From positions 158,907 to 222,906 of the IMG/VR virus record IMGVR_UViG_3300013233_000093: DNA of 64,000 nucleotides; one strand, given 5' to 3'. Both the position numbers and the translations under genes were made by a program. Below are positions 8,058-43,958 of this stretch, piece after piece. The DNA is from a virus. The notes under the pieces are model-generated. The model was not told the origin of the DNA. It did not search any database and saw only the letters and a program-made list of their open reading frames with translations. Within the stretch, counting starts at the first letter, position 1. Every line of letters begins with the position of its first letter.

Positions 8058-8088
8058 TTTATTCAAAACTATATCACTATTATGATAC
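8058..8088 (+). promoter_or_regulatory. phiKZ-type early promoter
   Basis: The core TATATCAC at 8070-8077 lies in the shared early motif. It is followed by CTTAGGTAATGTATTGATG, a leader that recurs with one change at 55247. Confidence 0.7.
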
Positions 8089-8103
8089 TTAGGTAATGTA
8101 TTG

Positions 8104-8211
8104 ATGGTGTATTTAGTTGTAACGGCGTTTGTGTTGTGGGTACTTGCACTCGCAGTAGGCGTGGTATTCGAGGCGTTTATGTGGGCGTACGATAAGTTAA
8201 CAAATCGTTAA
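8104..8211 (+). CDS. Single-pass membrane microprotein, 35 aa
   Basis: The first 27 residues ('MVYLVVTAFVLWVLALAVGVVFEAF') form one clear transmembrane helix, followed by a short basic tail. It is directly behind an early promoter, and the same leader precedes the unrelated gene at 55263. I infer a real early microprotein acting at the inner membrane. Confidence 0.6.
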   Translation: MVYLVVTAFVLWVLALAVGVVFEAFMWAYDKLTNR

Positions 8212-16454: not shown

Positions 16455-16480
16455 ATGATAACGCTATATTACCTTAGTGA
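16455..16480 (+). promoter_or_regulatory. Early promoter of hairpin-chain cassette 1
   Basis: The core is TATATTAC at 16465-16472, followed by CTTAGTGA, as in the promoter at 23564 (CTTTAGTGAT). It precedes the lipoprotein gene and the hairpin-rich gene. Confidence 0.65.
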
Positions 16481-16482
16481 GG

Positions 16483-17507
16483 CATGCGACCTTGCATGTT
16501 GTAACCATAGGTGCCATAACCTACAAAGATAGGTATGGTAAGTGAAGAGTATGAAATTAGATGTAGAGTCTCTACTGATCGCCGTTGTGGCGGTCGTTGT
16601 TCTTGTCGGGTGTTTTGCACCTGACGCTTCCACAGGTCGTACTTATAAAGAGTACGGCCCTTCTGAAACAGAAGCGGCGCAGTTGCGTCGCGATTATGGG
16701 CCTGCGAGGCCCAAAGGATATTAAAAATGTTTGTTGCCCGTAACTACAACGCCAAGGCTAGCATTAGCCTTGGCGTATTAACCAGTGAGGGGGATGTGTC
16801 TGTTGCACTGTCCCCCTCACTGAGAGGAGTGGAACACGGCTACGCAGTGATCGCCACTCTGCGGGGAGGTGCCATGAAAGCACTAGCCCCAGCTGGCCGT
16901 GTGCTGGAAGCCTGCACAGGTTTCCAGGTATTTACCAGAGATGGTAAATACCTTGTTCTAGGCACTGCTGTCGGTGACGACAGTGCTTATATCCGTCTCT
17001 TCAACCGCTATGGTAAAAACATAGCGGCCGTGTTCGAGGCGGGAGACGTAGATTCTTTTACGTTCTCCTCCTCATTTCTGGAGTCCATTATTAATGGACT
17101 CTTGGTGGCCTCTGGGAATTTTCCCAGAGAGTCACAGTGGGGGCGCAAGTCCTTCTCTTCCAAGACCAGCGATGGCTTGGATCCATGCATGCCCAAACTG
17201 GGCACCCAGAGCACCCAGGCGGGTACAATGCAGGTAAACGGTGATATGAAGAATATCACCATCGACATCACCACCCGTGAGGGGAAAGTGATGGCGTTGA
17301 AAGCGCTTAAGAAGCACACCCGCACCGCCTACAGTGTGTCCGACGATCTGTCCATGGTAGTATGTGCACAGCAAAACGCTGCGGGAGATCATTTCCGCAG
17401 TAAACTGTCAGTCTACACCTTCGGTGATGGAGAGTATCTCCACACCGCTACGGTGTGGCTGCCCGTCGATCACGACGGGGTTATGGGTCACACAGAAATG
17501 TGTGACC
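16483..17507 (+). other. Chain of unrelated perfect hairpins (cassette 1)
   Basis: Stems read directly from the sequence include 16749-16760/16765-16776 (12 bp), 16783-16794/16811-16822 (12 bp), 16926-16936/16943-16953 (11 bp), 17005-17012/17020-17027 (8 bp), 17081-17088/17094-17101 (8 bp), 17110-17118/17121-17129 (9 bp, nominal loop 2), 17240-17247/17253-17260 (8 bp), 17440-17447/17451-17458 (8 bp), 17462-17468/17473-17479 (7 bp) and 17486-17494/17499-17507 (9 bp, GAAA loop). Many shorter or bulged ones lie between. By a rough count, far fewer than one stem of 8 bp would be expected by chance in this length. Confidence 0.85.
16551..16724 (+). CDS. Small lipoprotein, 57 aa
   Basis: An N-terminal hydrophobic stretch ends in a lipobox, L-V-G-C, at about residues 18-21, so the mature protein should be lipid-anchored with a short polar tail rich in Tyr, Gly and Pro. 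A GTG at 16542 is an alternative start with a slightly better ribosome site. The coding DNA already shows the hairpin pattern: stems at 16638-16656 (6 bp), 16660-16674 (6 bp) and 16698-16712 (6 bp). It is the first gene of cassette 1. Confidence 0.65.
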   Translation: MKLDVESLLIAVVAVVVLVGCFAPDASTGRTYKEYGPSETEAAQLRRDYGPARPKGY

Positions 17508-17536
17508 GGGTCGGCCACATGTTAAGAGGAGGCTAA
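16727..17536 (+). CDS. Hypothetical protein encoded by a hairpin-chain gene, 269 aa
   Basis: I do not recognise the protein. It has beta-type segments ('FQVFTRDGKYLVLGTAV', 'LSVYTFGDGEYLHTATVWLPV') that look like propeller blades, a Ser/Gly/Thr-rich linker near 135-165, and a His- and Met-rich C-terminus. The DNA is extraordinary: at least nine perfect stems of 8 bp or more with short loops follow one another through the gene, each of different sequence. An AAAGGA ribosome site precedes the ATG, two bases after the lipoprotein stop. A strong terminator follows. Confidence 0.75.
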   Translation: MFVARNYNAKASISLGVLTSEGDVSVALSPSLRGVEHGYAVIATLRGGAMKALAPAGRVLEACTGFQVFTRDGKYLVLGTAVGDDSAYIRLFNRYGKNIAAVFEAGDVDSFTFSSSFLESIINGLLVASGNFPRESQWGRKSFSSKTSDGLDPCMPKLGTQSTQAGTMQVNGDMKNITIDITTREGKVMALKALKKHTRTAYSVSDDLSMVVCAQQNAAGDHFRSKLSVYTFGDGEYLHTATVWLPVDHDGVMGHTEMCDRVGHMLRGG

Positions 17537-23556: not shown

Positions 23557-23577
23557 TACTATCTATATTACTTTAGT
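23557..23577 (+). promoter_or_regulatory. Early promoter of hairpin-chain cassette 2
   Basis: The core is TATATTAC at 23564-23571 with CTTTAGTGAT following. It opens the leader shared with cassette 3. Confidence 0.7.
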
Positions 23578-23646
23578 GATACTTAGGTAATAATACTTAG
23601 GTGCACTGTTATAACTAATAGATCTCTTACTAGAGATCAAAGGATA
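23578..23646 (+). repeat. 69-nt leader, copy A (shared with 40037-40105)
   Basis: The 69 nt match the leader at 40037-40105 apart from the six central bases of an 18-nt hairpin (23621-23638). The arms GATCTC/GAGATC are the same, but the loop is TTACTA here and TAGTAA there, its reverse complement. Two copies of ATACTTAGG lie upstream within the leader. The AAAGGATA ribosome site follows. Confidence 0.9.
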
Positions 23647-23652
23647 AAGATT

Positions 23653-24522
23653 ATGTTTAAAATGATTAAAAGGTTGTTTGCCTGGATTAAGAAACTTCCA
23701 GTAATTGTACAAATTATGGTATTGGTTGTAGCCCTGCCCCTGGCTGCCGCGGCAGCTGTGGCATATGCAGTAACAATTGCAATGGTTTTAGTTTGGACAT
23801 GCACGGTTACACTCGCACAATTGTGTGCGAGTGTAACTGCCAAGGGACACCTCTACAGAGTAACCACACCAGACGGCATGGTCGGGTACATCGGAGGTAC
23901 CGTCCACAGTATGGTGCAGGCGCCGATGAAGTATATCCGCGCCGTCCGCGCAACTGGTAATTTGCTGGTGGAATACCGGGGATGTTGGGTTAAGGAAAAC
24001 GCTGTCGAAATTGCGGGGCTTAAGCAGAAGTTCTCTCCGGAGATTCCGGTCGAGCATTTGGTTGAAATGGAGGTAGAGAATGCTATTGCCCCTTTAACCC
24101 AGCTCCTGTTTGGCGGGTTGTTGACAATGGAGCGTACCCTTGAACGACATGCTGATAGCAAGTCGGCTGAGGTAGAGGACTTGCCTTCTATGGCCATGCA
24201 CTTGGATAGCATCCAGTGCCTAACGCCGCTGTACGCGGCGCGTACAGCGGCCATCGGCGCGTTTGCGAGCACAGCGGCGTTTGTAAAGACGGCGTATGCC
24301 ATTACGTACAAGGGCACAACGCCATTAGGCACCCATCTTTGTATGGGTGAGTCGTACGGCCTTAACAGCCGCAGCGCCATTCAGGCGCTGCGGCTGATGG
24401 ACGAGCTGGATGCCGGCCGTCCAGCCACTTTGATGGTCGGCGTGCTCCACCTGTACGCAGGAGGCCCATTCGCCTGCCTTGAGGTCTTAAAAGACAGAGG
24501 CTGCAAAATCGAACGCATGTAA
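23653..24522 (+). CDS. TraB/GumN (Tiki-like) family membrane protein
   Basis: Two N-terminal hydrophobic stretches (residues about 15-58) precede a soluble domain with the TraB/GumN hallmarks. These are the first GxxH motif at G82-T-V-H85 after 'VGYIG', 'NLLVEYRG' matching the usual 'vlvE', 'KSAEVEDLPSMAMHLDSI' matching the 'GLEt...Q...l' region, and the second GxxH at G263-V-L-H266 in 'TLMVGVLHLYAGGPFACLEVLKDRGCKIERM'. The family includes PrgY and the Tiki metalloproteases. It probably acts at the host membrane on a peptide or protein. The gene is hairpin-rich, notably at 23806-23837 (14 bp), 24225-24251 (11 bp) and 24366-24396 (13 bp). Confidence 0.7.
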   Translation: MFKMIKRLFAWIKKLPVIVQIMVLVVALPLAAAAAVAYAVTIAMVLVWTCTVTLAQLCASVTAKGHLYRVTTPDGMVGYIGGTVHSMVQAPMKYIRAVRATGNLLVEYRGCWVKENAVEIAGLKQKFSPEIPVEHLVEMEVENAIAPLTQLLFGGLLTMERTLERHADSKSAEVEDLPSMAMHLDSIQCLTPLYAARTAAIGAFASTAAFVKTAYAITYKGTTPLGTHLCMGESYGLNSRSAIQALRLMDELDAGRPATLMVGVLHLYAGGPFACLEVLKDRGCKIERM

Positions 24523-26479: not shown

Positions 26480-28213
26480 TTAACCCAGCACGTGTACTAA
26501 GCCGGTGTTCAAACCAGCCGCGTCGTTCCCTGTGCTACCGGCCAACCCACGAATGCCAGACAAGTCAACAGACACGTCGTGTCCGAAACTGTCCCCGCTC
26601 AGTGAACTGGCTGATACGATAGACGCAGTGTTGCCCCAGACAGAAGCTGTATTTAGATACACTAAAACCATGCCTGTTTCAACGGCTGCGTTATCTTGAA
26701 ACGGAGCGCCAACAAGTAACGTCAAACCGTCACCTGATAGTGCCACCGAGGTCCCAAAGTTTGCACCCAGCTCAACGGTGGGCGCTTCTATCTTTGTAAC
26801 TGCAGTCCATACGGACGTTGTGTTACTGTAAATGTACACACCACCGGCACCGGCCAGTGTAGCGTCATCTGCATTAGCGCCAATGGCACACGTAAGCCCG
26901 TCGTTTGAGATGGACACCGCAAAGCCAAAGTGATCGTTAGCGGTTACGCTTAGATCTGTCAATTCAGACGTAAGGCTCCATGCACCAGCAGCCAGTGTGT
27001 ATACTTCCGCTTTACCTGCACCTACTCCTGCAGTAGAGTCATAGGGAGACCCCACTACCAGATTGTTGGCGAGGCCGTCGACGTCGACTGCGTGACCAAA
27101 GTACCCGTCAGCGATAGCCACTGGCGGTGCAATACCTGCGGTCTGTGTCCACACACCTAAGGCGTCTTTCGTGAACACGTACACATAGCCCGCCGTCGTG
27201 ACCGGGATCACGCCCACTGTTTTAGTAGGTGATCCAATTACCACGCAGTTACCTGCGGTGTTTACACTCACACTGTAGCCGAACCATCCGATGTCTGTGT
27301 GATCCAATGGCACCAGTGATGTATCCAGTGTCCAGACACTGCCTGTGCGTTTATACACATGTACCGCACCAGCACCGACTACGTTATTGACATTACTGTT
27401 ACCATACGCACCCACGGTTAAAACATCGCCCGTTTCGTTAAGAGACACGTCACAACCAAAGTATGCGCTGGCTTGTCCAAGCGGATGCATGAGTTTTTCT
27501 TTCTCTACCCAAATACCTGCGACTTGTTCATAAAGAAACACGGCGCCTGAGTCTAGTCCGAGTGTGTCGTCCAGATACATACCTACAGCTGCGTACACGC
27601 CGTTTCCAGAGATAGCAGTGGCATTGCCATACTGACCGCCTAAAGACGGCGTAGAGGGCACCAGCGTCCCTACAGTGCCTGTGATGTCCAACGCTTCCAC
27701 GGTGAACGACGTCACAGGACCAAACTCAGAGACCACGCCGTTACTGCCTTCGTAACTTACACGAGCAAAGTATTGAGTGGTGGCGTTTAGTGTAACGCCC
27801 AGCGCACCCAAATCCACTGTGTTACTGGTACTCACGGTTCTACCACTGTCGTACACTACGTTGGTAAATGTAACGTCTAACGCAAGCACCAGGCGATAAG
27901 CCACTTGGGTGTCTGAGTTATAGTTTACATCCACGCCCGTAAAGGAAGACAGTGTGATGATTGGAGAGGGCACTACGTTTAACGCACCGTTAACTGGCAC
28001 CGTTACCTTGGGAGGCGCCACGCCTGTTAAGATAGACGAGGTAATCGCCTGACCACCGGGTGTACTGCCGTCGTGAATGTGAATCACGGGCGCCGCTGTA
28101 TCGGTATAATCAATCACCATTTCATTTAGAGGACCTGTGTAGGCGCCGTTAGCGCCTGCCGTAAACGTGCGTTTCCACAGCCACGGCTCGGTCATTTGTT
28201 TTTCGCCAGCCAT
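26480..28213 (-). CDS. Tail fibre with beta-propeller (FG-GAP-like), 577 aa
   Basis: Residues 1-75 resemble an attachment domain ('NEMVIDYTDTAAPVIHIHDGSTPGGQ'). Residues about 80-190 look like an Ig/Fn3 module ('PVNGALNVVPSPIITLSSF...TQYFARVSYEGSNGVVSEFGPVTSFTV'). The remainder is a propeller with about seven blades, each 'FG..V.....G..L.VGA......G..YVY'. Two neighbours share the design. It is likely a receptor-binding adhesin. Confidence 0.75.
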   Translation of the reverse strand: MAGEKQMTEPWLWKRTFTAGANGAYTGPLNEMVIDYTDTAAPVIHIHDGSTPGGQAITSSILTGVAPPKVTVPVNGALNVVPSPIITLSSFTGVDVNYNSDTQVAYRLVLALDVTFTNVVYDSGRTVSTSNTVDLGALGVTLNATTQYFARVSYEGSNGVVSEFGPVTSFTVEALDITGTVGTLVPSTPSLGGQYGNATAISGNGVYAAVGMYLDDTLGLDSGAVFLYEQVAGIWVEKEKLMHPLGQASAYFGCDVSLNETGDVLTVGAYGNSNVNNVVGAGAVHVYKRTGSVWTLDTSLVPLDHTDIGWFGYSVSVNTAGNCVVIGSPTKTVGVIPVTTAGYVYVFTKDALGVWTQTAGIAPPVAIADGYFGHAVDVDGLANNLVVGSPYDSTAGVGAGKAEVYTLAAGAWSLTSELTDLSVTANDHFGFAVSISNDGLTCAIGANADDATLAGAGGVYIYSNTTSVWTAVTKIEAPTVELGANFGTSVALSGDGLTLLVGAPFQDNAAVETGMVLVYLNTASVWGNTASIVSASSLSGDSFGHDVSVDLSGIRGLAGSTGNDAAGLNTGLVHVLG

Positions 28214-28222
28214 TAACCTCTC

Positions 28223-29902
28223 CTAAGCGTATGTGTATACCGCACCGGCTTCGTTACCGTTAGTGCCTTCACCGAAAGCACCCACTGCACCGACAGAACC
28301 GTCTGCTGATAATGATGTTGAAATACCCACGTAATCGTAGGACGTTGCGTTACTTGCGGAAACAGAGGTGCCAGCTTGCACCCACGTGCCTGTGGCTTTA
28401 GAGAAAATACTAAAGTCACCTGCGTACACGTTAGCCCCATACGCACCTGCAATGATTAACAGCCCGTCACCTGAGATGGCAACCGAACGACCAAACGCAT
28501 CGCTTGCAGATAACCCGGAAGGCACCAGTCGTGTACCACTGTCCCATGCACCGTTAACGGTATCGTAAGTGAATACGTATATCGCGCCTGCAGAAGTCGC
28601 AGTGGCATCTTCACCGTACGCACCGATTACAACAGTATTACCGTCAGTAGACGAATCCACCGAGTAACCAAAGTATCCGTAAAGCTCGGGAGTGGGTGGG
28701 TAGAGTACATCGTCTTCGTTATAACCACCACCGCCATCGGGTGAGAATACGAACACGGCACCTGCGTCGGTTTGACCTGCATCGTCGGACAAATAAGCGC
28801 CCACGAACAAGCGTGACGCATCCCCCGCCATAGACACAGACGTCCCAAAGCGATCGCCGGTAGTGGTGTTATTAGCCAACACTTCGTTTTCTTTGCCGTC
28901 TGTAAAATCGCGGTTATCGGGATCCCACGTATAAACAGCACCGCTGGAGTTACCATTAGCTGGATTAAGGTCGGAACCTGCTGCTAACCATAAACCGTCA
29001 TCAGAGATGGATACTGAAATGCCTAACTGGTCATCTTGATTACCCGTAGCCAGCATTTTTACATCTTCACTCCAGTTGTTCCCGCCGCCGCCGTCTAGGA
29101 AGATATAGATAGCGCCTTCTGCGGGAGCATTACCGCCATCGTGCATATAAGCACCAACCGCCAGTACATCACCCACGTCGTTCAACGACACAGAGTAACC
29201 AAAGAAATCGCCAGATTGTGTATCGCTGCCTGTAAATGCCGCGTCCTCGATCCATTTCAAGGTAGGTGCATCCCATTTATAGATATACACCTTACCGCCG
29301 TCAGTACCAGCATCAGTTTGCAAGTACGAACCTACGGCTAATGTCAGTCCATCGGCAGACAATGCCACCGACTGTCCAAAGCGATCGCCGCCAGCAGCAT
29401 CACTGGCGTAAACGATGTCTGTCTCTGTAGACAAGACATCTGCCAATGTGCTAAAGGAAATCACAGGTGACCATGAGGACAACGGTGCAAGGTTGGATTC
29501 ATAGCGCACTTGGATGTAGTACGTAGTACCTTGGATTAACGTAAGTCCTAACGAGGTTAAATCCAACGACGTTAGGTTCGCGGTATCACGGGACGTATCC
29601 ACGACTAACGTGGACATGGCTGCGTCTGTAGCCACTCGCCAGTAAGAGGCCACGTGCGTGCCGTCTCCTGACATTGTACTTGCGGTTACAACAGGAGCAG
29701 TGGTAAACCCACCAGCACCGTCCAGTGGGGAAGTCACGGAAGGAGCTGTAATGGCAAACCCTACTGGGTCTAACGAGACACCACCCGCCACTGTATTTTG
29801 AATCAACAACTGTCCCTTGCCTTCCCGAACAAGCAACTCGCCATACTCGCCTGCTTTAGCGGGCGCTTCTAAGGCAGTCAACGGATGTAGTTTTACTCGC
29901 AT
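28223..29902 (-). CDS. Tail fibre with beta-propeller (FG-GAP-like), 559 aa
   Basis: Same architecture as the neighbour: a short N-terminal part ('AGEYGELLVREGKGQLLIQN'), an Ig/Fn3-like module to about residue 160, then seven or so blades with 'DRFGQSVALSADGLTLAVGSY', 'DFFGYSVSLNDVGDVLAVGAY', 'DQLGISVSISDDGLWLAAGSD' and similar. The Asp-rich turns fit calcium-binding FG-GAP blades. Probably one of several alternative adhesins. Confidence 0.75.
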   Translation of the reverse strand: MRVKLHPLTALEAPAKAGEYGELLVREGKGQLLIQNTVAGGVSLDPVGFAITAPSVTSPLDGAGGFTTAPVVTASTMSGDGTHVASYWRVATDAAMSTLVVDTSRDTANLTSLDLTSLGLTLIQGTTYYIQVRYESNLAPLSSWSPVISFSTLADVLSTETDIVYASDAAGGDRFGQSVALSADGLTLAVGSYLQTDAGTDGGKVYIYKWDAPTLKWIEDAAFTGSDTQSGDFFGYSVSLNDVGDVLAVGAYMHDGGNAPAEGAIYIFLDGGGGNNWSEDVKMLATGNQDDQLGISVSISDDGLWLAAGSDLNPANGNSSGAVYTWDPDNRDFTDGKENEVLANNTTTGDRFGTSVSMAGDASRLFVGAYLSDDAGQTDAGAVFVFSPDGGGGYNEDDVLYPPTPELYGYFGYSVDSSTDGNTVVIGAYGEDATATSAGAIYVFTYDTVNGAWDSGTRLVPSGLSASDAFGRSVAISGDGLLIIAGAYGANVYAGDFSIFSKATGTWVQAGTSVSASNATSYDYVGISTSLSADGSVGAVGAFGEGTNGNEAGAVYTYA

Positions 29903-29912
29903 GACATCTCCC

Positions 29913-30623
29913 CTAAAGCGCTAAAGCATCTGCAATAGCTGTGGTAAAACGCTGTGATACGTTAATGTCTTGTAACGCAGGAAGATCTCCTGTGGAGACC
30001 GCCAAGTTCATCTGGATCTCCAACTCACCACGCACCTTATAACCCAGTGCGTAACGAGTAAGGATCGCACGATACAGCTCAGTAGCCGCAGTGCTGTCCG
30101 CGATGTCCAAAGAAGCAGATGCATTACGATCCGCCAGATGTCCTGGTGTGTTTAGATTGACTACTGCTTTGGCACGCCAAGTAGTGGCGGCTGCCCAGCC
30201 TGCAGTAAAGGCATCCATCAGATCTTTCGCGTCAGACTTAGCCGCGCCGTCGTGTGAGATCATCACTCCGCTGTAAGGCAGTCGAGTGGTGATGTACCGT
30301 TTATGCACGGCTTTCAACTCACGCAGTTTTACGTCCAACAACTCTTCGGCAGTCATATCCACTGCACTGTAGTTGATTGTAATGGTTGAATCGTTTTCTT
30401 CTCTACCGATCACCCGTAGACGTTGGTTTGGGCTTACAGGCGGCTTATTAGCCACGACCTGTTTTACAACCAGATGGTCTCCGATGGCAGCGCCACCGTG
30501 GATGGATCCTGGCACCAGGTTAGGGTCAATGCCGTTTCGTGCAGCCAGGTCACGCACTGCGATGGGATCGTATTCCACAGGACCCATAACACGTTTACCA
30601 CTTCTAAAAATTTCGCACAACAC
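29913..30623 (-). CDS. Tail protein with DUF4376-like domain, 236 aa
   Basis: Residues about 100-215 ('TAEELLDVKLRELKAVHKRYITTRLPYSGVMISHDGAAKSDAKDLMDAFTAGW...TWRAKAVV...TELYRAILTRYALGY') resemble the DUF4376 region found in phage tail proteins, usually near fibres. It starts at GTG 30623 after AGGAG. It is sandwiched between propeller fibres and may help attach or assemble them. Confidence 0.55.
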   Translation of the reverse strand: MLCEIFRSGKRVMGPVEYDPIAVRDLAARNGIDPNLVPGSIHGGAAIGDHLVVKQVVANKPPVSPNQRLRVIGREENDSTITINYSAVDMTAEELLDVKLRELKAVHKRYITTRLPYSGVMISHDGAAKSDAKDLMDAFTAGWAAATTWRAKAVVNLNTPGHLADRNASASLDIADSTAATELYRAILTRYALGYKVRGELEIQMNLAVSTGDLPALQDINVSQRFTTAIADALAL

Positions 30624-30635
30624 GTTATACCACTC

Positions 30636-32354
30636 CTATCCGAATAAAATAACACCGCCGCCGTTTACAACGACGCTTGCATCTGATGCAGCACCTGCTG
30701 CTAATGTATCGCCACGATCGCTTACCGCCAGAGAACTGCCCAGCTTACCGCTGGCACCTACTGTGGTGCTGGTTAAGGTCACGGTCTCTATCCAGTTATT
30801 GGACAGATCTTTACTGAACATATAGATACTGCCCGCATCCACGCCGCCTGCTACTGTGTCTTTAAGACGCGCAGATACGAAGAGTTGGTCGCTGGTGGAT
30901 GTGAACACAAGCGCACCGCCAAAGGCATCGCCGAGTACGGTGGTCGCGGGCTTTAACAATCCATATTCTGTCCAGACACTGTTAATGTCCTTTCTATACA
31001 AATGCACTGTCCCTGTCTCTGTGCCGATCCCGCCTTCAGTGGGTGCGCCTACAGCGATCACACTGGCATCCGGACTGATGCAGACACTAAGGCCAAACTG
31101 TCCGTCTGCTTGTGGTGTAGACGATGTCAACGCGACTTCCGTCCACACACCTAAGACTTGCTCAAACACATACGCATCACCGGTCTTACCGGATGCTGCT
31201 CCGTGATATGTACCAATCACAATTACTTTCTTGTCATCCGACACACTTAGAGAGTACCCGAACTGTGCGGCTGTGACTTGTACCGCAGGCGTTAACACAC
31301 CTTTGTTATACCAGTCGTTTGCAGCATCCACTTCAAAGATTTGTGCAGTGCCCAGGGCGGTTGAATTACGCTCACCCACCACGACCATTGTGCCGTCAGA
31401 AGACACAGTCAGTGAACTGCCAAATAACGCAGATGCCACAGGAGTGTTAGACACCACTGTTTTCTCTAGTGTGTATGCGCCGTTTACTCTACGGTAGATA
31501 TGCACTTGTCCTGCGTTAGTGACCACGGAGCCGTTTACCACTGGATCTCCCAGTGCTTCAGATATAACAAGTACTTGTCCGTCATTAGACATGGCCATGG
31601 CCTGTCCAAAGTAACTGTATGTTACACCGGCGGGTGAGAAGATGCGTTGTGTCTCCACGTAAGCGTTGTTTACCAATTCACTGATATAGACAGATCCAGT
31701 ATCAATGATGGCGTTACCGTCTTCGTATGGCGCTCCTGTGGCCATAATGCTGCCATCGCCAGAGAGGGCTACTGAAGAACCAAAGAAATCATCTGCTGCT
31801 GCATCGGACGCCACAACGTGTGCTAATTCAGCTGTGGGATACGCCAACGCTACGGTAAAGCTTACAGGCGCACTCCAGTCAGACATTACCCCTGCAATAG
31901 AAGTATACCGCACTCTAGCGTAATACGTACCTACTGATAGTGGCGAGTTAAGACTGGCTACATCGAACTGCGTTAAAGCAGTATAAGACTCTGGTATATT
32001 AGCTACCAGGTTTTTCATTGTTACGTCGGTGGCGATTTCCCAAAAGGCAGTGGCTTGCTGTGCTACAGATTTATCACTGTTGATTCCTTCGAAAGGAACT
32101 GCAGATAACATAGGTTCTGGATGCACGCCTGTACTGCCTTCCACAGGCGTCACCATGATGGGTGTTACTACACCACCAATGCCAGTGCCCATCGCCGGAT
32201 AACCGCCTGGTGTAACGCCGTCACCCAAGCGTAAGCGAGGGGTGATATCACGACGATCTACAAACAACTCATCCTTTAACTGGATGTTGTTGAATAAGTC
32301 CGTCGCGTTAAACGAGTTTAAAACTACCGGCTGTGTTAAGAATACAGTAGGCAT
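30636..32354 (-). CDS. Tail fibre with beta-propeller (FG-GAP-like), 572 aa
   Basis: The N-terminal ~70 residues ('IQLKDELFVDRRDITPRLRLGDGVTPGGYPAMG') are like the attachment region at 26480. An Ig/Fn3-like module follows to about 170, then seven blades ('DDFFGSSVALSGDGSIMATGAPY', 'YFGQAMAMSNDGQVLVISEA', 'LFGSSLTVSSDGTMVVVGER' and so on). Third copy of this fibre design in 6 kb. Confidence 0.75.
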   Translation of the reverse strand: MPTVFLTQPVVLNSFNATDLFNNIQLKDELFVDRRDITPRLRLGDGVTPGGYPAMGTGIGGVVTPIMVTPVEGSTGVHPEPMLSAVPFEGINSDKSVAQQATAFWEIATDVTMKNLVANIPESYTALTQFDVASLNSPLSVGTYYARVRYTSIAGVMSDWSAPVSFTVALAYPTAELAHVVASDAAADDFFGSSVALSGDGSIMATGAPYEDGNAIIDTGSVYISELVNNAYVETQRIFSPAGVTYSYFGQAMAMSNDGQVLVISEALGDPVVNGSVVTNAGQVHIYRRVNGAYTLEKTVVSNTPVASALFGSSLTVSSDGTMVVVGERNSTALGTAQIFEVDAANDWYNKGVLTPAVQVTAAQFGYSLSVSDDKKVIVIGTYHGAASGKTGDAYVFEQVLGVWTEVALTSSTPQADGQFGLSVCISPDASVIAVGAPTEGGIGTETGTVHLYRKDINSVWTEYGLLKPATTVLGDAFGGALVFTSTSDQLFVSARLKDTVAGGVDAGSIYMFSKDLSNNWIETVTLTSTTVGASGKLGSSLAVSDRGDTLAAGAASDASVVVNGGGVILFG

Positions 32355-38739: not shown

Positions 38740-39954
38740 ATGTATAACGTGGTGTCGGTATTGGTAAGAAATAACCGTGAATGGTACGAATTGGATTACA
38801 CAGACTTGTTGTTATCTGACCTGGTGTCTGTGAATCACACGGTGCACGTCACTGTGCATGACGGTGAGCAAAGTGAGAATACGTTTAACTTACGAAGTGC
38901 GTTACAGGAGTTACGCGTACGGACGGATAACAAGACATTAGACGAGTGGGTCGCGACGCTCGAACTGCTGCCTTGGAAGTCACTGGTCAATCAACAGCCA
39001 CTGGATAACGTAAGAAAGATGCACGTCACTGATATCTATCACTGGGATGTGAAATATGAGATCGGTAACTACGAATACGGTCGTGGTCAATCCGTGCCTT
39101 TGGGATCCAGTACGGATTTGATGATCTATAACAAAGGTGATGTGGATGTCATCAGTTGGATGCAGCGGCATTGCTTGTTTAGCATTAACGGTTTCGTGCA
39201 CCGCAGTGAAGTCGTGGGAGATGCATTGGTAGTGCGTCATGCATTAGCGTACCTACGGGCATCCGGTACACAAGCTGCTATTATCCGTGTGATCGATTTA
39301 TCTGAGTTAGGCGAATGGTCTTGGCACGTCATGGACTCGGCTGAGTTAAAGGTGTTAGAACCTACGGATAACGATCGTAACCGAAACGAGACTCGTGTGA
39401 CGTATGAACATGCAGGACTGTCTGGTAAATCCATTGCAGGTGTATTGGACGCACATCCACATTTGTTTGACGGTGTGTTTACCATGCACGATGCGGATCA
39501 CGTGATGATTACACTGAACCGTAAGGCGATGGTGCAACACGAGTCTAAGAATCCAGTACCCAGTCATGCAGACGGTCTTGTGGACGGTGTGTTGTCTCTG
39601 AGTAACTTTGATGCAGTCCAGTATCTTAATCACGGGGTGAGTGGGATTATCATTTTCGAGAATCCAGATGTGAACGTAAAACGTACGCTGATGGGTCGTA
39701 CGGACATCCCTGGGTTATATACGTCCCATCGCACGCACAGTGGGATCATGGTGGACAGTAAGGGATGGGTGGTGGATTACACGTTAGAAGGTCTGTCAAC
39801 CGACATGATGGTCTACAGTACCACTGCTGGATATCGACGTGCATACTTGTCTGATATGTACGGCCAGCGCTCATACCTGAGTCATGGTGAATACGCAGTA
39901 AGCGCGATAGCGGATGATGTATACGCAATCGACTTATACGCAACGATGGATTAA
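38740..39954 (+). CDS. Putative virion structural protein, 404 aa
   Basis: Unknown protein with a mixed alpha/beta sequence, rich in Asp, His and Tyr, and no signal peptide. It is divergent from the fibre operon and followed by a strong terminator. Regular beta segments ('GVSGIIIFENPDVNVKRTL', 'THSGIMVDSKGWVVDYTLEG') suggest a tail or baseplate component, but position is the main argument. Confidence 0.6.
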   Translation: MYNVVSVLVRNNREWYELDYTDLLLSDLVSVNHTVHVTVHDGEQSENTFNLRSALQELRVRTDNKTLDEWVATLELLPWKSLVNQQPLDNVRKMHVTDIYHWDVKYEIGNYEYGRGQSVPLGSSTDLMIYNKGDVDVISWMQRHCLFSINGFVHRSEVVGDALVVRHALAYLRASGTQAAIIRVIDLSELGEWSWHVMDSAELKVLEPTDNDRNRNETRVTYEHAGLSGKSIAGVLDAHPHLFDGVFTMHDADHVMITLNRKAMVQHESKNPVPSHADGLVDGVLSLSNFDAVQYLNHGVSGIIIFENPDVNVKRTLMGRTDIPGLYTSHRTHSGIMVDSKGWVVDYTLEGLSTDMMVYSTTAGYRRAYLSDMYGQRSYLSHGEYAVSAIADDVYAIDLYATMD

Positions 39955-39956
39955 CT

Positions 39957-39990
39957 ATATAGACTATCCCGTAGTGGGATAGTCTATATG
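39957..39990. terminator. Intrinsic terminator
   Basis: A 14-bp perfect stem (39957-39970 with 39977-39990... arms ending at 39989) with loop around GTAGT follows the stop codon directly. A T-rich stretch follows at about 39990-40000. Confidence 0.75.
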
Positions 39991-40015: not shown

Positions 40016-40040
40016 ACAAAACTATATCACTATTATGATA
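40016..40040 (+). promoter_or_regulatory. Early promoter of hairpin-chain cassette 3
   Basis: The core TATATCAC at 40023-40030 is followed by TATTATGATA, the usual early motif. Confidence 0.7.
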
Positions 40041-40105
40041 CTTAGGTAATAATACTTAGGTGCACTGTTATAACTAATAGATCTCTAGTAAGAGATCAAA
40101 GGATA
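40037..40105 (+). repeat. 69-nt leader, copy B with inverted hairpin
   Basis: It matches 23578-23646 except for the hairpin at 40080-40097, which is the exact reverse complement of the one at 23621-23638. It ends with the AAAGGATA ribosome site. Confidence 0.9.
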
Positions 40106-40110
40106 TTGTT

Positions 40111-40515
40111 ATGTTGAATGCTAAATTGATGGTTCGTTCTGCTAAGAAATTTTCTTTCTGGTACGCACGCCAAATGCGTGCGGTTAGTAAGTACATTGTC
40201 GTGAAAAATAAGATGTTAAAACTCACCCTTGGCTTAGGGATTTCCCAAACTCAGATAAACAAAATAACCGGTCACCGATACGAGCTGCACGCACGCCCGC
40301 TCGGTGGGCATGGTTGGGTGTTCGTAGCCCGAGAATGGTCTGCAAGCAAGGGGGGTACGCGTACCCTCCTGCGGGAGAAAACGGTTTGTGGTAACAAACC
40401 GATTGAGGTGGGTTACCACAACATTATCCATTCGTCTACCGTGATAGACGAAGGCATAGAGCGTGTCGAGAAGTACCGATTCAACATCGAGAGTAACTCG
40501 CTTATTAGTGTGTAA
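40111..40515 (+). CDS. Hypothetical basic protein, 134 aa (hairpin-rich gene)
   Basis: Unknown protein, strongly basic in its first 45 residues ('KLMVRSAKKFSFWYARQMRAVSKYIVVKNKMLKL') and mixed afterwards. The DNA carries successive stems: 40164-40170/40176-40182 (7 bp), 40349-40358/40361-40370 (10 bp, one G-U, nominal loop 2), 40382-40389/40394-40401 (8 bp) and 40431-40438/40445-40452 (8 bp). It is the only gene of cassette 3. Confidence 0.7.
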   Translation: MLNAKLMVRSAKKFSFWYARQMRAVSKYIVVKNKMLKLTLGLGISQTQINKITGHRYELHARPLGGHGWVFVAREWSASKGGTRTLLREKTVCGNKPIEVGYHNIIHSSTVIDEGIERVEKYRFNIESNSLISV

Positions 40516-40525
40516 CCCTCTACAG

Positions 40526-40575
40526 CATACATCCCCTGCAAATGCAGGGGATGTATGACTTACTTTCTTTTTTCT
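40526..40575 (+). terminator. Intrinsic terminator of cassette 3
   Basis: A 15-bp perfect stem (40526-40540 with 40543-40557) is followed by T-rich sequence. Confidence 0.85.
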
Positions 40576-40647
40576 TTTTACATCGTCTAGACTTTTATAC
40601 GTCGTCGTGTTACCTAGAGGATCTGTAGATGCATATATCACATATGC

Positions 40648-42069
40648 CTAGCTTGCGTCACCGCCCACATGTTTGTTTACTTGAGTCGCTATAAACAACT
40701 GCGTATCTGTCCAATGCTTTAAGACCTTCACGCCTAATGCATACGACGATGTATAACTACTTATGATGCCAGTGATTGCACTGGCGACTCGGTCGTTTTT
40801 GCCGATCTTGGTGAGGCGGGCGGTCTTAGCATAACCGGGCTCATGGAGAGACCCGTCTCGCAATGAATCTTCATTGCTTTCATGCGCCTTCTTTATTTCT
40901 TTATGCATCTCCTTGACCTTCCCCGACATGACCTTGGCCGTAACTTCCGAAAGCTCTACCAACTTAGCGACATTACCATGACGATTTATACGCTTATCTG
41001 TGGGGTCGTCAGGTATAACGTAATCGACCGGAATGTATATATGGTCGTGTTTATACGTATCGGGTAGGTAATCGAAGCTCCACGTCGGTATGGACTGGAC
41101 GTAGTCCACCTTCGTCCTCACCCGGCCACCTATTAACTGATCGTGGATAAGCGGTTCCTTGGTGTTAATTAATTCACCTGGCATAGCGATGCCTTGCTCC
41201 TCTAACCGCTCAGATAGATATGTGAGTGGCGGGGATATAAAACCCGACGTCTCAAAATAGTTGCGACTAATTGCATCGAGGTACCTTTCTTCTGCATCAG
41301 ACAAGGAGAAGCCACTGTCAAAATATGAGGACATGCGCTTTACTAACGCACCCGTGTTATTTAAGGTCGTGCGTGCCACTGTATTGTTGATCGCAGCGTA
41401 CGCGGTTCGGGCACAAACATCTCCGTTCACACCTATGTGATCTTTGTGATAGTCTATGTATTCGCCATCTTTATTAAAGAATCCCCATTTTAAAACGTGG
41501 TCTAGTTCCTTGTCACGTTTTCCACGAGGACATGGTACTGAGAAGAACCCCTCTTTGTCAGTAGGTGGTAAAAAAGGTTGCGCGTCTTCGTCGCGCTTCG
41601 AGGCTTCCTCTCTACGCGCGTCTTCGTCGCGCTTCGAGGCTTCCTTCTCACCGGAGATTATTTTGCGGGTATCTGTGTTTATCCTGTCTTCCCTTGCTTG
41701 GATTTTGCCTATGACGCCTCCCACGGGAGTAGGCTTCTCTTCATACACACTTCCAGGAGTATCAGGGTTAGTGCTGCCCTTACCTCCGGTAAGCCACTCC
41801 CAGAGTCTTTTAAGGCCGTTTACCACTGCCATGACTGCTTTTACTATAAGCTTCCACACAGCCTTAAAAGCACGTCCTATAAACTGCATGCCTGCCACAG
41901 TGTCTGCGCCTATGGAGTCGCCAGACACCCACTTCACACGGTCTTTGTCTAGGCAAAGCATACCGGCAATACTATCAGACTCCTCATAGATCTTAATAAC
42001 ACGACCACTAAGCACCCCATCCAACACCAACTCAGCATACTCCAACTCACTCACCACACTACTATCCAT
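40648..42069 (-). CDS. Internal head protein family member, 473 aa
   Basis: Shares with four other genes here an N-terminal propeptide-like region followed by a cationic amphipathic helix and a 'WLTGGK' turn: 'MQFIGRAFKAVWKLIVKAVMAVVNGLKRLWEWLTGGKGS', then 'PGSVYEEKPTPVGGVIGK'. After this comes a repeated 'EEASKRDEDA' segment (about 155-170) and a unique helical domain. In phiKZ-like phages such proteolysed, abundant proteins fill the capsid. ATG 42069 follows GGAGA. Confidence 0.6.
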   Translation of the reverse strand: MDSSVVSELEYAELVLDGVLSGRVIKIYEESDSIAGMLCLDKDRVKWVSGDSIGADTVAGMQFIGRAFKAVWKLIVKAVMAVVNGLKRLWEWLTGGKGSTNPDTPGSVYEEKPTPVGGVIGKIQAREDRINTDTRKIISGEKEASKRDEDARREEASKRDEDAQPFLPPTDKEGFFSVPCPRGKRDKELDHVLKWGFFNKDGEYIDYHKDHIGVNGDVCARTAYAAINNTVARTTLNNTGALVKRMSSYFDSGFSLSDAEERYLDAISRNYFETSGFISPPLTYLSERLEEQGIAMPGELINTKEPLIHDQLIGGRVRTKVDYVQSIPTWSFDYLPDTYKHDHIYIPVDYVIPDDPTDKRINRHGNVAKLVELSEVTAKVMSGKVKEMHKEIKKAHESNEDSLRDGSLHEPGYAKTARLTKIGKNDRVASAITGIISSYTSSYALGVKVLKHWTDTQLFIATQVNKHVGGDAS

Positions 42070-42100
42070 TACTGTTCTCCAGGTAATATACGACATAAGA

Positions 42101-42136: not shown

Positions 42137-43345
42137 TTACATAATCCCGGCAAGCAAAATCTTACGTTTAAGCTCTGTGTCATATGCAATCGTGGCCGTC
42201 AGCGATTTAACAGTTTTAGACAGTATTCCTAACGATGCAGTTTCCTCGCTTAGGTACGCTGAAAAAACGCGCGCGCGCGCAGTGGCTTCGGTTTCGTGGT
42301 CTTCTTCTTTTGATAAGGCACCTTCGACCAGTCTTCTACTGACCGTCACGCCCTTTGTAAGTGTGGCATGTGCCTTCTCCGTCGCATTCACGACGGCGGC
42401 AATCGCAGCATGGGTTTCCTTAACAACATCAGCATTTAATTCGCCGTTTTCGACAACAAGGGTGGTTAAGGATTGTGCTTGACCTGCGATCAAAGTCATC
42501 TTAAGCGACGTCCCCTTTTTTAGCATTGCAATTGACTTGCCTCCACCCATTAGCATCCCTGTAACCCATTCACCGTCTTTAAGGGCTCTAGGATCATCCT
42601 TTATACCCAGAGCGCCCAAAGCATTCTTTTTACGCGTGTGCACAATATCTACAAAACCGGCAAGGTTAAACTTGCCCTTAATGTCCAGTACCACGTGTTT
42701 AGCGGCGGTCAGCATCGCCTTCCCCCCGGTCTTCGCGTAAAGTGCCATGTATGAGTTAAGCATTTTGTATGTGGCCGCGGTGGCTTTGCTGTCAAGCCTT
42801 CCATCAGGCGAAACGATGCCGTTATCTTCTATCTTCTTAATTAAGTCGCTGAACTTTTTACGTACATCGCCGGTAAGTTTAATCTCGAAATCGAGGTCAA
42901 CAGTTGACGTAGGCGCGTACATGCCTTCCGGCAGTGCGGCGCGTGCCCAGTCTACGCCGTCCGAGATTGCCTTATTAATTTGGGCGGCGTGTCCGCGAAT
43001 CTTGGTGGCTGCCTTGTCTTGAGCCGCCATGGCCTTACCGATCACACCTCCTACTGGAGTATCGGTCTTTTCATAAGTGGCGCTGACAGTACCTTTATTG
43101 TTAGACTTCTTACCACCTGTGAGCCATTCCATCAGCTTTTTCAAGCCATTCACTACTGCCGTGACTGCTTTGACGATCATGTCCCATACAAACTTAAAGG
43201 ACTTCTTGATAAACTGCATGCCAGGTTGTTTGGCTTCCAATCCTCCAGCAATGCTATCGCCGTCGTACGGCATCTCGGTAACACTTCCATCGGTGACAGC
43301 GTCTAACAAAGAGATCGCTTCGCCTAATTCTACATATGCTTGCAT
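42137..43345 (-). CDS. Internal head protein family member, 402 aa
   Basis: Clear paralogue of the gene at 40648: 'MQFIKKSFKFVWDMIVKAVTAVVNGLKKLMEWLTGGKKS' then 'SATYEKTDTPVGGVIGKAMAAQDK'. The first 40 residues are acidic, as expected of a removable propeptide; G-L-E just before 'AKQPGMQF' fits the small-x-Glu type cleavage site of phiKZ-like head proteases. The C-terminal region differs among members. Confidence 0.6.
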   Translation of the reverse strand: MQAYVELGEAISLLDAVTDGSVTEMPYDGDSIAGGLEAKQPGMQFIKKSFKFVWDMIVKAVTAVVNGLKKLMEWLTGGKKSNNKGTVSATYEKTDTPVGGVIGKAMAAQDKAATKIRGHAAQINKAISDGVDWARAALPEGMYAPTSTVDLDFEIKLTGDVRKKFSDLIKKIEDNGIVSPDGRLDSKATAATYKMLNSYMALYAKTGGKAMLTAAKHVVLDIKGKFNLAGFVDIVHTRKKNALGALGIKDDPRALKDGEWVTGMLMGGGKSIAMLKKGTSLKMTLIAGQAQSLTTLVVENGELNADVVKETHAAIAAVVNATEKAHATLTKGVTVSRRLVEGALSKEEDHETEATARARVFSAYLSEETASLGILSKTVKSLTATIAYDTELKRKILLAGIM

Positions 43346-43358
43346 CGGTCACGTGTCC

Positions 43359-43958
43359 TTATTTAAGGTTAAGTAGTAAGGCTTCAAGTACGTCTACTTG
43401 GGCCTGAGTGTCGGCTGTACGTCCGATCCAGTGCTTTAACTCCGCATAAGCGGTGCGTCTGTCTGTGATCGCCGCTAGCCTATTGCGTTCCAGTAATGCA
43501 GCTTGTGCAGGGGTCACTGGAACCGTAATGGGATATCGATGTATCTGTACCTGTGGCATGACGCCAATAATGTCTGAACAGTAATCCTTAAACCCGTCTG
43601 TAATGGCGGTGATGTCCAGCTTGTCTGGAATCAATCCAAGGTCTGCGGATAAGATTACATTTGTGTAATCTGAAGTCTGTGCAGGTGGTGCAGCTACTAT
43701 ATATGATTCGGGTAAGTTTATCGCATTACCCGATGTCGTGCTGATAAGCGTGACTATTTTTCCACCTGTGGCTAGGTCTGCCGCGTAGACTGTGGCAGGT
43801 AATCCAAGCGGTTTGTAATGTGCGTTATACACATCCACGCCTGAAAGCTGTAAGGATTCAAAGGTCTCTATCGCACTGCATTTTAATACCTCTCCAGGAG
43901 CCACTGTGAAGGGCGCAGAGAGTTCGTATACACCAACCGCATCAATTGACGGTAACAC
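43359..43958 (-). CDS. Putative virion protein, 199 aa
   Basis: Unknown. It starts at GTG 43958, eight bases after GGAGG, and overlaps the upstream gene by 17 bases. The first two-thirds are beta-rich ('FTVAPGEVLKCSAIETFESLQLSG'), the end is helical ('TPAQAALLERNRLAAITDRRTAYAELKHWIGR'). Coupling to the next structural gene suggests they work together. Confidence 0.6.
   Translation of the reverse strand: MLPSIDAVGVYELSAPFTVAPGEVLKCSAIETFESLQLSGVDVYNAHYKPLGLPATVYAADLATGGKIVTLISTTSGNAINLPESYIVAAPPAQTSDYTNVILSADLGLIPDKLDITAITDGFKDYCSDIIGVMPQVQIHRYPITVPVTPAQAALLERNRLAAITDRRTAYAELKHWIGRTADTQAQVDVLEALLLNLK

Follow-up and report, generated by a model that had tools for sequence, protein, structure and literature searches.

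The window analysed here, a stretch of 64,000 nucleotides, spans positions 158,907-222,906 of a 222,906-bp virus record (G000). At about 40 kb, it carries a single gene with its own promoter and terminator, located between genes that, judging by homology, belong to the late programme. Phage morons show the same arrangement, and the question is whether this unit moves as a block, is an ordinary early gene, or shares with similar units only a control region that is itself exchanged. An earlier note had counted it as the third of three hairpin-rich cassettes (hereafter, cassettes 1 to 3) and had taken all three for mobile moron units.

The structural proteins of the phage match phiKZ-like families in profile comparisons, and by these matches the source virus is a phiKZ-like jumbo phage. 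The nearest named relatives are Vibrio phages Yong MS31 and BONAISHI, with about 25-40% amino acid identity; no close relative was found in phage records or IMG/VR. The unit consists of the end of gene 38740-39954, a terminator, a promoter, a leader, a Shine-Dalgarno (SD) sequence, ORF 40111-40515 and a second terminator, in this order:

38740..39954, + strand: upstream gene, 404 aa, homolog of a BONAISHI virion structural protein and of Yong MS31 QAX96792
39947..40007, + strand: block in common with G000:98379-98439, 97% identical; last 8 nt of the upstream gene plus the terminator
39956..39990, + strand: upstream terminator hairpin, 16 pairs, separating the unit from the late gene
40023..40041, + strand: predicted early promoter of the virion-RNAP type, TATATCACTATTATGATAC; the record has 29 of these
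40040..40061, + strand: leader 5' stem-loop, ACUUAGGUA pairing with UACUUAGGU; a direct repeat as DNA, a hairpin as RNA through two G.U pairs
40080..40097, + strand: second leader stem-loop, GATCTCT-AGTA-AGAGATC; stem invariant in seven copies, loop variable
40098..40103, + strand: SD sequence AAAGGA, immediately 3' of the second stem-loop and 7 nt before the ORF
40111..40515, + strand: 134-aa ORFan gene (P0001), product basic, pI 10.2; frame favoured by codon statistics
40164..40182, + strand: inverted repeat in the coding sequence, 7-bp arms, 7/7
40349..40370, + strand: inverted repeat in the coding sequence, 11-nt arms, 10/11 per arm, loop 0
40379..40421, + strand: two overlapping alternative inverted repeats in the coding sequence, 40379-40404 (10/11) and 40386-40421 (13/15)
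40425..40458, + strand: inverted repeat in the coding sequence, 14-nt arms, 12/14, 86%
40526..40557, + strand: predicted intrinsic terminator with a perfect stem of 15 bp, followed by a T-rich tail that runs to about 40590

The upstream gene product matches phrog_3337 (E 6e-25) and aligns with its counterparts in the relatives at 23-25% identity in tblastn, the homology being supported by synteny as well. Most of the anatomy given in the earlier note was recovered. The 134-aa gene is real, with ORF 40111-40515 preceded by the SD sequence AAAGGA; its codon statistics are slightly below those of the late genes of this phage, but the correct frame is still clear. Codon statistics also ruled out an antisense ORF (40234-40641) as a true gene. 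The stems named within the gene exist, at 40164-40182 and 40349-40370 and as pairings around 40382-40401 and 40431-40452, and the 15-bp terminator is a perfect stem with a T-rich tail. The early promoter is present too, but at 40023-40041, whereas position 40037, where it had been placed, is the probable transcript start according to the motif and the phiKZ/AR9 precedent.

No homologs of P0001 were detected in Pfam, PHROGs, NCBIfam, PADLOC or PDB sequences, nor in phage records, IMG/VR or GTDB genomes, the sensitivity of the viral and genome scans being limited to close relatives; Rfam gave no match. AlphaFold models of P0001 and of the cassette 2 protein, built without an alignment, have a pLDDT of about 41. 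From its position and timing, a role of P0001 in host takeover or counter-defence would be the most likely guess.

The promoter motif, an AT-rich element of about 10 nt that recurs before early genes, resembles the early promoters of phiKZ-like phages, for which recognition by virion RNAP and a start about 10 nt downstream would be expected. The record contains 29 copies, all of them on the + strand, whereas a reversed-pattern control yielded no forward and one reverse match. Across the whole record, all 29 early promoters thus point in the same direction, yet late genes occupy both strands. In the passages of PMC7598289 and PMC5312081 considered here, the early promoters of phiKZ/AR9-like jumbo phages are likewise AT-rich motifs that recur before early operons; the promoter of this phage differs in its sequence, TATATYACTWTWRTGATAC, and in its restriction to one strand. 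In Yong MS31, BONAISHI and a third relative, the motif has at most one or two weak matches, which is the chance level.

Seven of the 29 promoters are followed by a 69-nt leader and 22 are not. All seven leader copies lie on the + strand, each at a one-gene unit, and the leader units are bounded by terminators, as had been proposed for the cassettes. The encoded proteins show no similarity to one another or to other phage genes, in agreement with the earlier description of unrelated products. The leader had been considered common to the three cassettes of the window; this holds for cassettes 2 and 3, whereas cassette 1 has its own:

16465..17536, + strand: cassette 1, variant promoter TATATTACCTTAGTGAGGC, a different leader and gene 16727-17536, the most hairpin-dense gene
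23564..24522, + strand: cassette 2, promoter, leader and a 289-aa gene; second leader unit in the window

The search for the leader that had been suggested, with a listing of the genes behind it, recovered the seven copies ahead of mutually dissimilar ORFans in this genome and none in the other collections: the leader DNA had no match in phage records, and the leader plus promoter patterns had none in IMG/VR.

The leader carries the direct repeat ACTTAGGT twice, and as RNA the two copies pair in a stem of 9 bp that includes two G.U pairs. The average folding energy of this leader structure is about -8.4 kcal/mol in the sense and about -2.8 kcal/mol in the antisense orientation; 98% of cells are paired, versus 25-47% in slid versions, and one copy has a U-A pair in place of U.G, with the stem kept. 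The second stem, GATCTC/GAGATC, abuts AAAGGA and is constant, whereas its loop differs among the copies in both sequence and length; within the genome, the AGATCTC-N-GAGATC hairpin occurs only at the seven leaders. This strand-specific folding suggests a structure at the RNA level; because the pairs hardly vary, the evidence is one of folding rather than proof by covariation. The G.U direct-repeat hairpin also sets the leader apart from the descriptions in the passages of PMC7598289 and PMC5312081 drawn on here.

About 18 of the 22 predicted early transcripts lacking the leader start with a different stem-loop (GGACAAC/GUUGUC, GAUAAC/GUUAUC or GAUACACA/UGUGUGUC; for example, at the promoters G000 33910, 48910, 51293, 71406 and 118555), with compensatory and wobble variants in which U-A or U.G replaces C-G. 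Taken one by one, many of these outperform shuffles by a modest margin; the weight lies in their recurrence. Because both kinds of early transcript start with stem-loops, a 5'-terminal hairpin seems to be the rule for the early mRNAs of this phage. In E. coli, stem-loops of the ompA/papA type, placed at the very 5' terminus, are established mRNA stabilisers that impede RppH and RNase E (PMC3997798). The predicted leader hairpin occupies the same position and, by analogy, might hinder these enzymes likewise; it differs in being accompanied by a second stem-loop set directly against the SD sequence.

Two early promoters (window 8070-8200 and G000:214130) have very short leaders, ACTTAGG(T/A)AATGTATTGATG. 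The ACTTAGG element of the leader seems to act as a ribosome-binding site there, and such short leaders are a possible origin of the long one.

The control region of cassette 3 is a mosaic of blocks present elsewhere in the genome. The 61-bp block with the upstream terminator has its twin at 98379-98439, 100 kb away and ahead of another leader unit (98,455); the whole control regions of these two units are 85% identical over 159 bp, and no other early-promoter pair has an upstream terminator block similarly in common. The nearest copy of the promoter sub-block belongs to the 34,643 unit, and the 5' stem-loop plus spacer are 100% identical to those of the 64,231 and 182,470 units. Because adjoining blocks have different nearest neighbors, recombination among the copies is indicated. 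The units might instead be ordinary early genes in which selection for a common regulator keeps the leader alike at seven loci with no shuffling, as the invariant stems, the variable loops and the recurrent stem-loops of other early transcripts would allow. This appears rather improbable, given that copying is needed to place a terminator together with the end of an upstream gene at two loci 100 kb apart, and to produce sub-blocks with differing nearest neighbors.

Only the 5' control block is common to the leader units; their coding sequences and 3' terminators differ. This bears on the proposal that whole cassettes, from promoter to terminator, insert as mobile moron blocks. The isolation of the units, each with its own promoter and terminator, is compatible with such insertion, and so are the Yong MS31 sites, which are empty for both the 198,929 cassette (cassette 3 in record numbering) and the 34,643 cassette. 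However, no pair of cassettes has a common coding sequence or closely similar 3' terminators, and no endonuclease, recombinase or target duplication was found beside cassette 3. Its base composition is ordinary (GC 0.47 versus 0.478 in the genome), not atypical as in morons, and it resides in a lytic-type jumbo phage, with site comparisons that extend to distant relatives only. Mobility of the cassettes as whole moron units is hardly likely, and the earlier claim is not supported in that form.

At the site itself, just 47 bp separate the Yong MS31 homologs of genes 38740-39954 and 43359-43958, so cassette 3 and its neighbors 40648-42096 and 42137-43345 have no counterpart there. In BONAISHI, five other genes occupy the corresponding site. 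The two genes flanking the 34,643 unit are likewise immediate neighbors in Yong MS31. A third relative (G001), in which the flanking homologs are 17 kb apart, was set aside for this comparison. Judged from relatives at about 25-40% amino acid identity, the site is variable, a comparison that gives neither the direction (gain versus loss) nor the date of the change.

We therefore favor exchange of the control region. The seven dispersed copies would represent one recombining module composed of a terminator, a virion-RNAP promoter and a two-hairpin leader. Packaged virion RNAP would transcribe the cassette 3 gene right after infection, and the flanking terminators would exclude it from late transcription. 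The 5'-terminal and SD-adjacent stem-loops would shield the short mRNA and present the ribosome-binding site, and homologous recombination would swap control blocks between loci, by which new ORFans could be captured or re-wired. The inverted repeats of the coding sequence, addressed below, would most likely be DNA-level quasi-palindromes of the template-switch type, tolerated in weakly constrained genes, and not an mRNA device. Taken jointly, these steps describe cassette 3 as an accessory gene of a phiKZ-like jumbo phage that would be transcribed early, as a unit of its own, under a recombining control module; this account appears fairly probable on sequence grounds.

The closest known parallel is the promoter early stem-loops (PeSLs) of T4-type phages (Arbiol et al. 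2010, doi 10.1093/gbe/evq006; Comeau et al. 2014, doi 10.1093/gbe/evu129; as cited in PMC4503421). PeSLs combine an intergenic stem-loop terminator with an early promoter, as do 39956-39990 and 40023-40041, and their copies are dispersed in one genome and tied to ORFan shuffling, as with the seven units encoding unrelated proteins. Blocks are exchanged in both cases, although the mosaic of the 40-kb copy involves copies inside one genome only. The T4-type promoter is host sigma-70-like, whereas that of the phiKZ-like phage is phage-specific, AT-rich and of the virion-RNAP type; the module described here additionally includes the two-hairpin 5' leader. Because the promoter is not of the T4 type, we do not class the module as a PeSL; the best reading is of a PeSL-like module that arose anew around virion-RNAP promoters and whose copies recombination has shuffled. 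This suggests that phiKZ-like jumbo phages, which have their own polymerase, possess PeSL-like cassettes independently of the T4-type phages for which these were described. Through exchange of control blocks, such jumbo phages would have a specific way to bring new host-takeover ORFans under expression at the earliest stage.

Hairpin-laden coding DNA had been proposed as a further trait common to the three cassettes, and in part this holds. In hairpin density, cassette 3 is third among the 68 genes of the window, behind the other two cassettes, and the inverted-repeat score of its coding sequence is 8, versus 0.8 in synonymous-codon shuffles (P ~0.003-0.005). However, the trait is modest in cassette 3, the weakest of the three, because the folding energy of its coding sequence is not unusual compared to synonymous shuffles (sense z of -1.3, versus -12 for cassette 1 and -6.7 for cassette 2; antisense z of -2.9). 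Three of the seven leader genes show no hairpin excess. Gene 16727-17536 of cassette 1 is the most hairpin-laden of the genome, with nine perfect inverted repeats and 20% of its bases in arms; seven of the nine are in codon-against-codon register.

A survey covering 206.9 kb of the record, taken in stretches, identified five genes (2.6 kb) with 17 stems of at least 8 bp, versus 1.3 expected from synonymous shuffles; all other genes have 44 stems in 177.5 kb, versus about 29 in shuffles. Perfect repeats thus exceed the codon-shuffle expectation in the five-gene set, some of the cassette 3 arms being mismatched. The leader precedes four of these five (Fisher P 2e-6, a descriptive value since the class was chosen by density). 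The count outside the window is a fairer check, the earlier note having been made from the window only: outside it, two of the five leader genes (98543-98782 and 64319-64576) reach such density, and they are the only credible cases.

This association, together with a cassette 1 mRNA fold 12 sd below synonymous shuffles (9 sd for the antisense), is what would be expected if the hairpins were selected RNA structures, tiled stem-loops that armour or tune the mRNAs and functionally belong with the leader. That explanation is nonetheless unlikely: stem ends show no excess of G.U over A.C (4 versus 5), antisense strands are about as structured as the sense strands, the sense fold of cassette 3 is ordinary, and not all leader genes show the excess. 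The lack of a G.U preference and the similarly structured antisense strands favor DNA-level quasi-palindromes, and the cassette 3 repeats look DNA-level. The part that this DNA-level reading leaves unexplained is the clustering of hairpin-dense genes behind one leader, for which a purely mutational origin does not account. We also give little credence to a distinct, previously undescribed class of early genes, in which the shuffled two-hairpin leader and the inverted-repeat-tiled coding sequence would form one system for early-mRNA handling or for gene birth by template switching.

For cassette 3 itself, the repeats could be a chance excess, considering that a P of ~0.003-0.005 was reached among 68 genes, that the sense folding energy is ordinary and that a Serratia phage Moabite gene attains similar density. 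Four stems in one 405-bp gene, behind the leader with which four of the five densest genes are associated, speak against chance, which we consider somewhat doubtful. In five other jumbo phages, genes of such hairpin density are rare, that Moabite gene being the one comparable to cassette 3. Two hypothetical genes of Moabite (MK994515, 251134-251748 and 217648-218088) contain several inverted repeats, a milder form of the trait. That the repeats are copies of a mobile palindromic element was rejected, as a search with the whole region matched only the leader, promoter and terminator.

Coding palindromes of Nematomorpha mitochondria are similar in being mostly perfect inverted repeats in protein genes, with both arms coding and few mismatches (PMC6649704). 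There, the arms reach 284 bp, versus 7-15 bp here, where only about five early genes, all of one phage, carry such repeats. Genes with inverted-repeat-saturated coding DNA offer a testable case of template switching versus mRNA structure.

The cassette 2 protein (23653-24522) had no Pfam match; it has an N-terminal hydrophobic helix and the motifs GTVHS and VGVLHL, which we take to be reminiscent of TraB/GumN proteins. On the - strand of the window, 26480-32354 encodes three paralogous proteins of 559-577 aa (about 27-30% identity) that adjoin further proteins with a common phrog_2163 N-terminal domain; this array looks like a tail-fibre or baseplate array.
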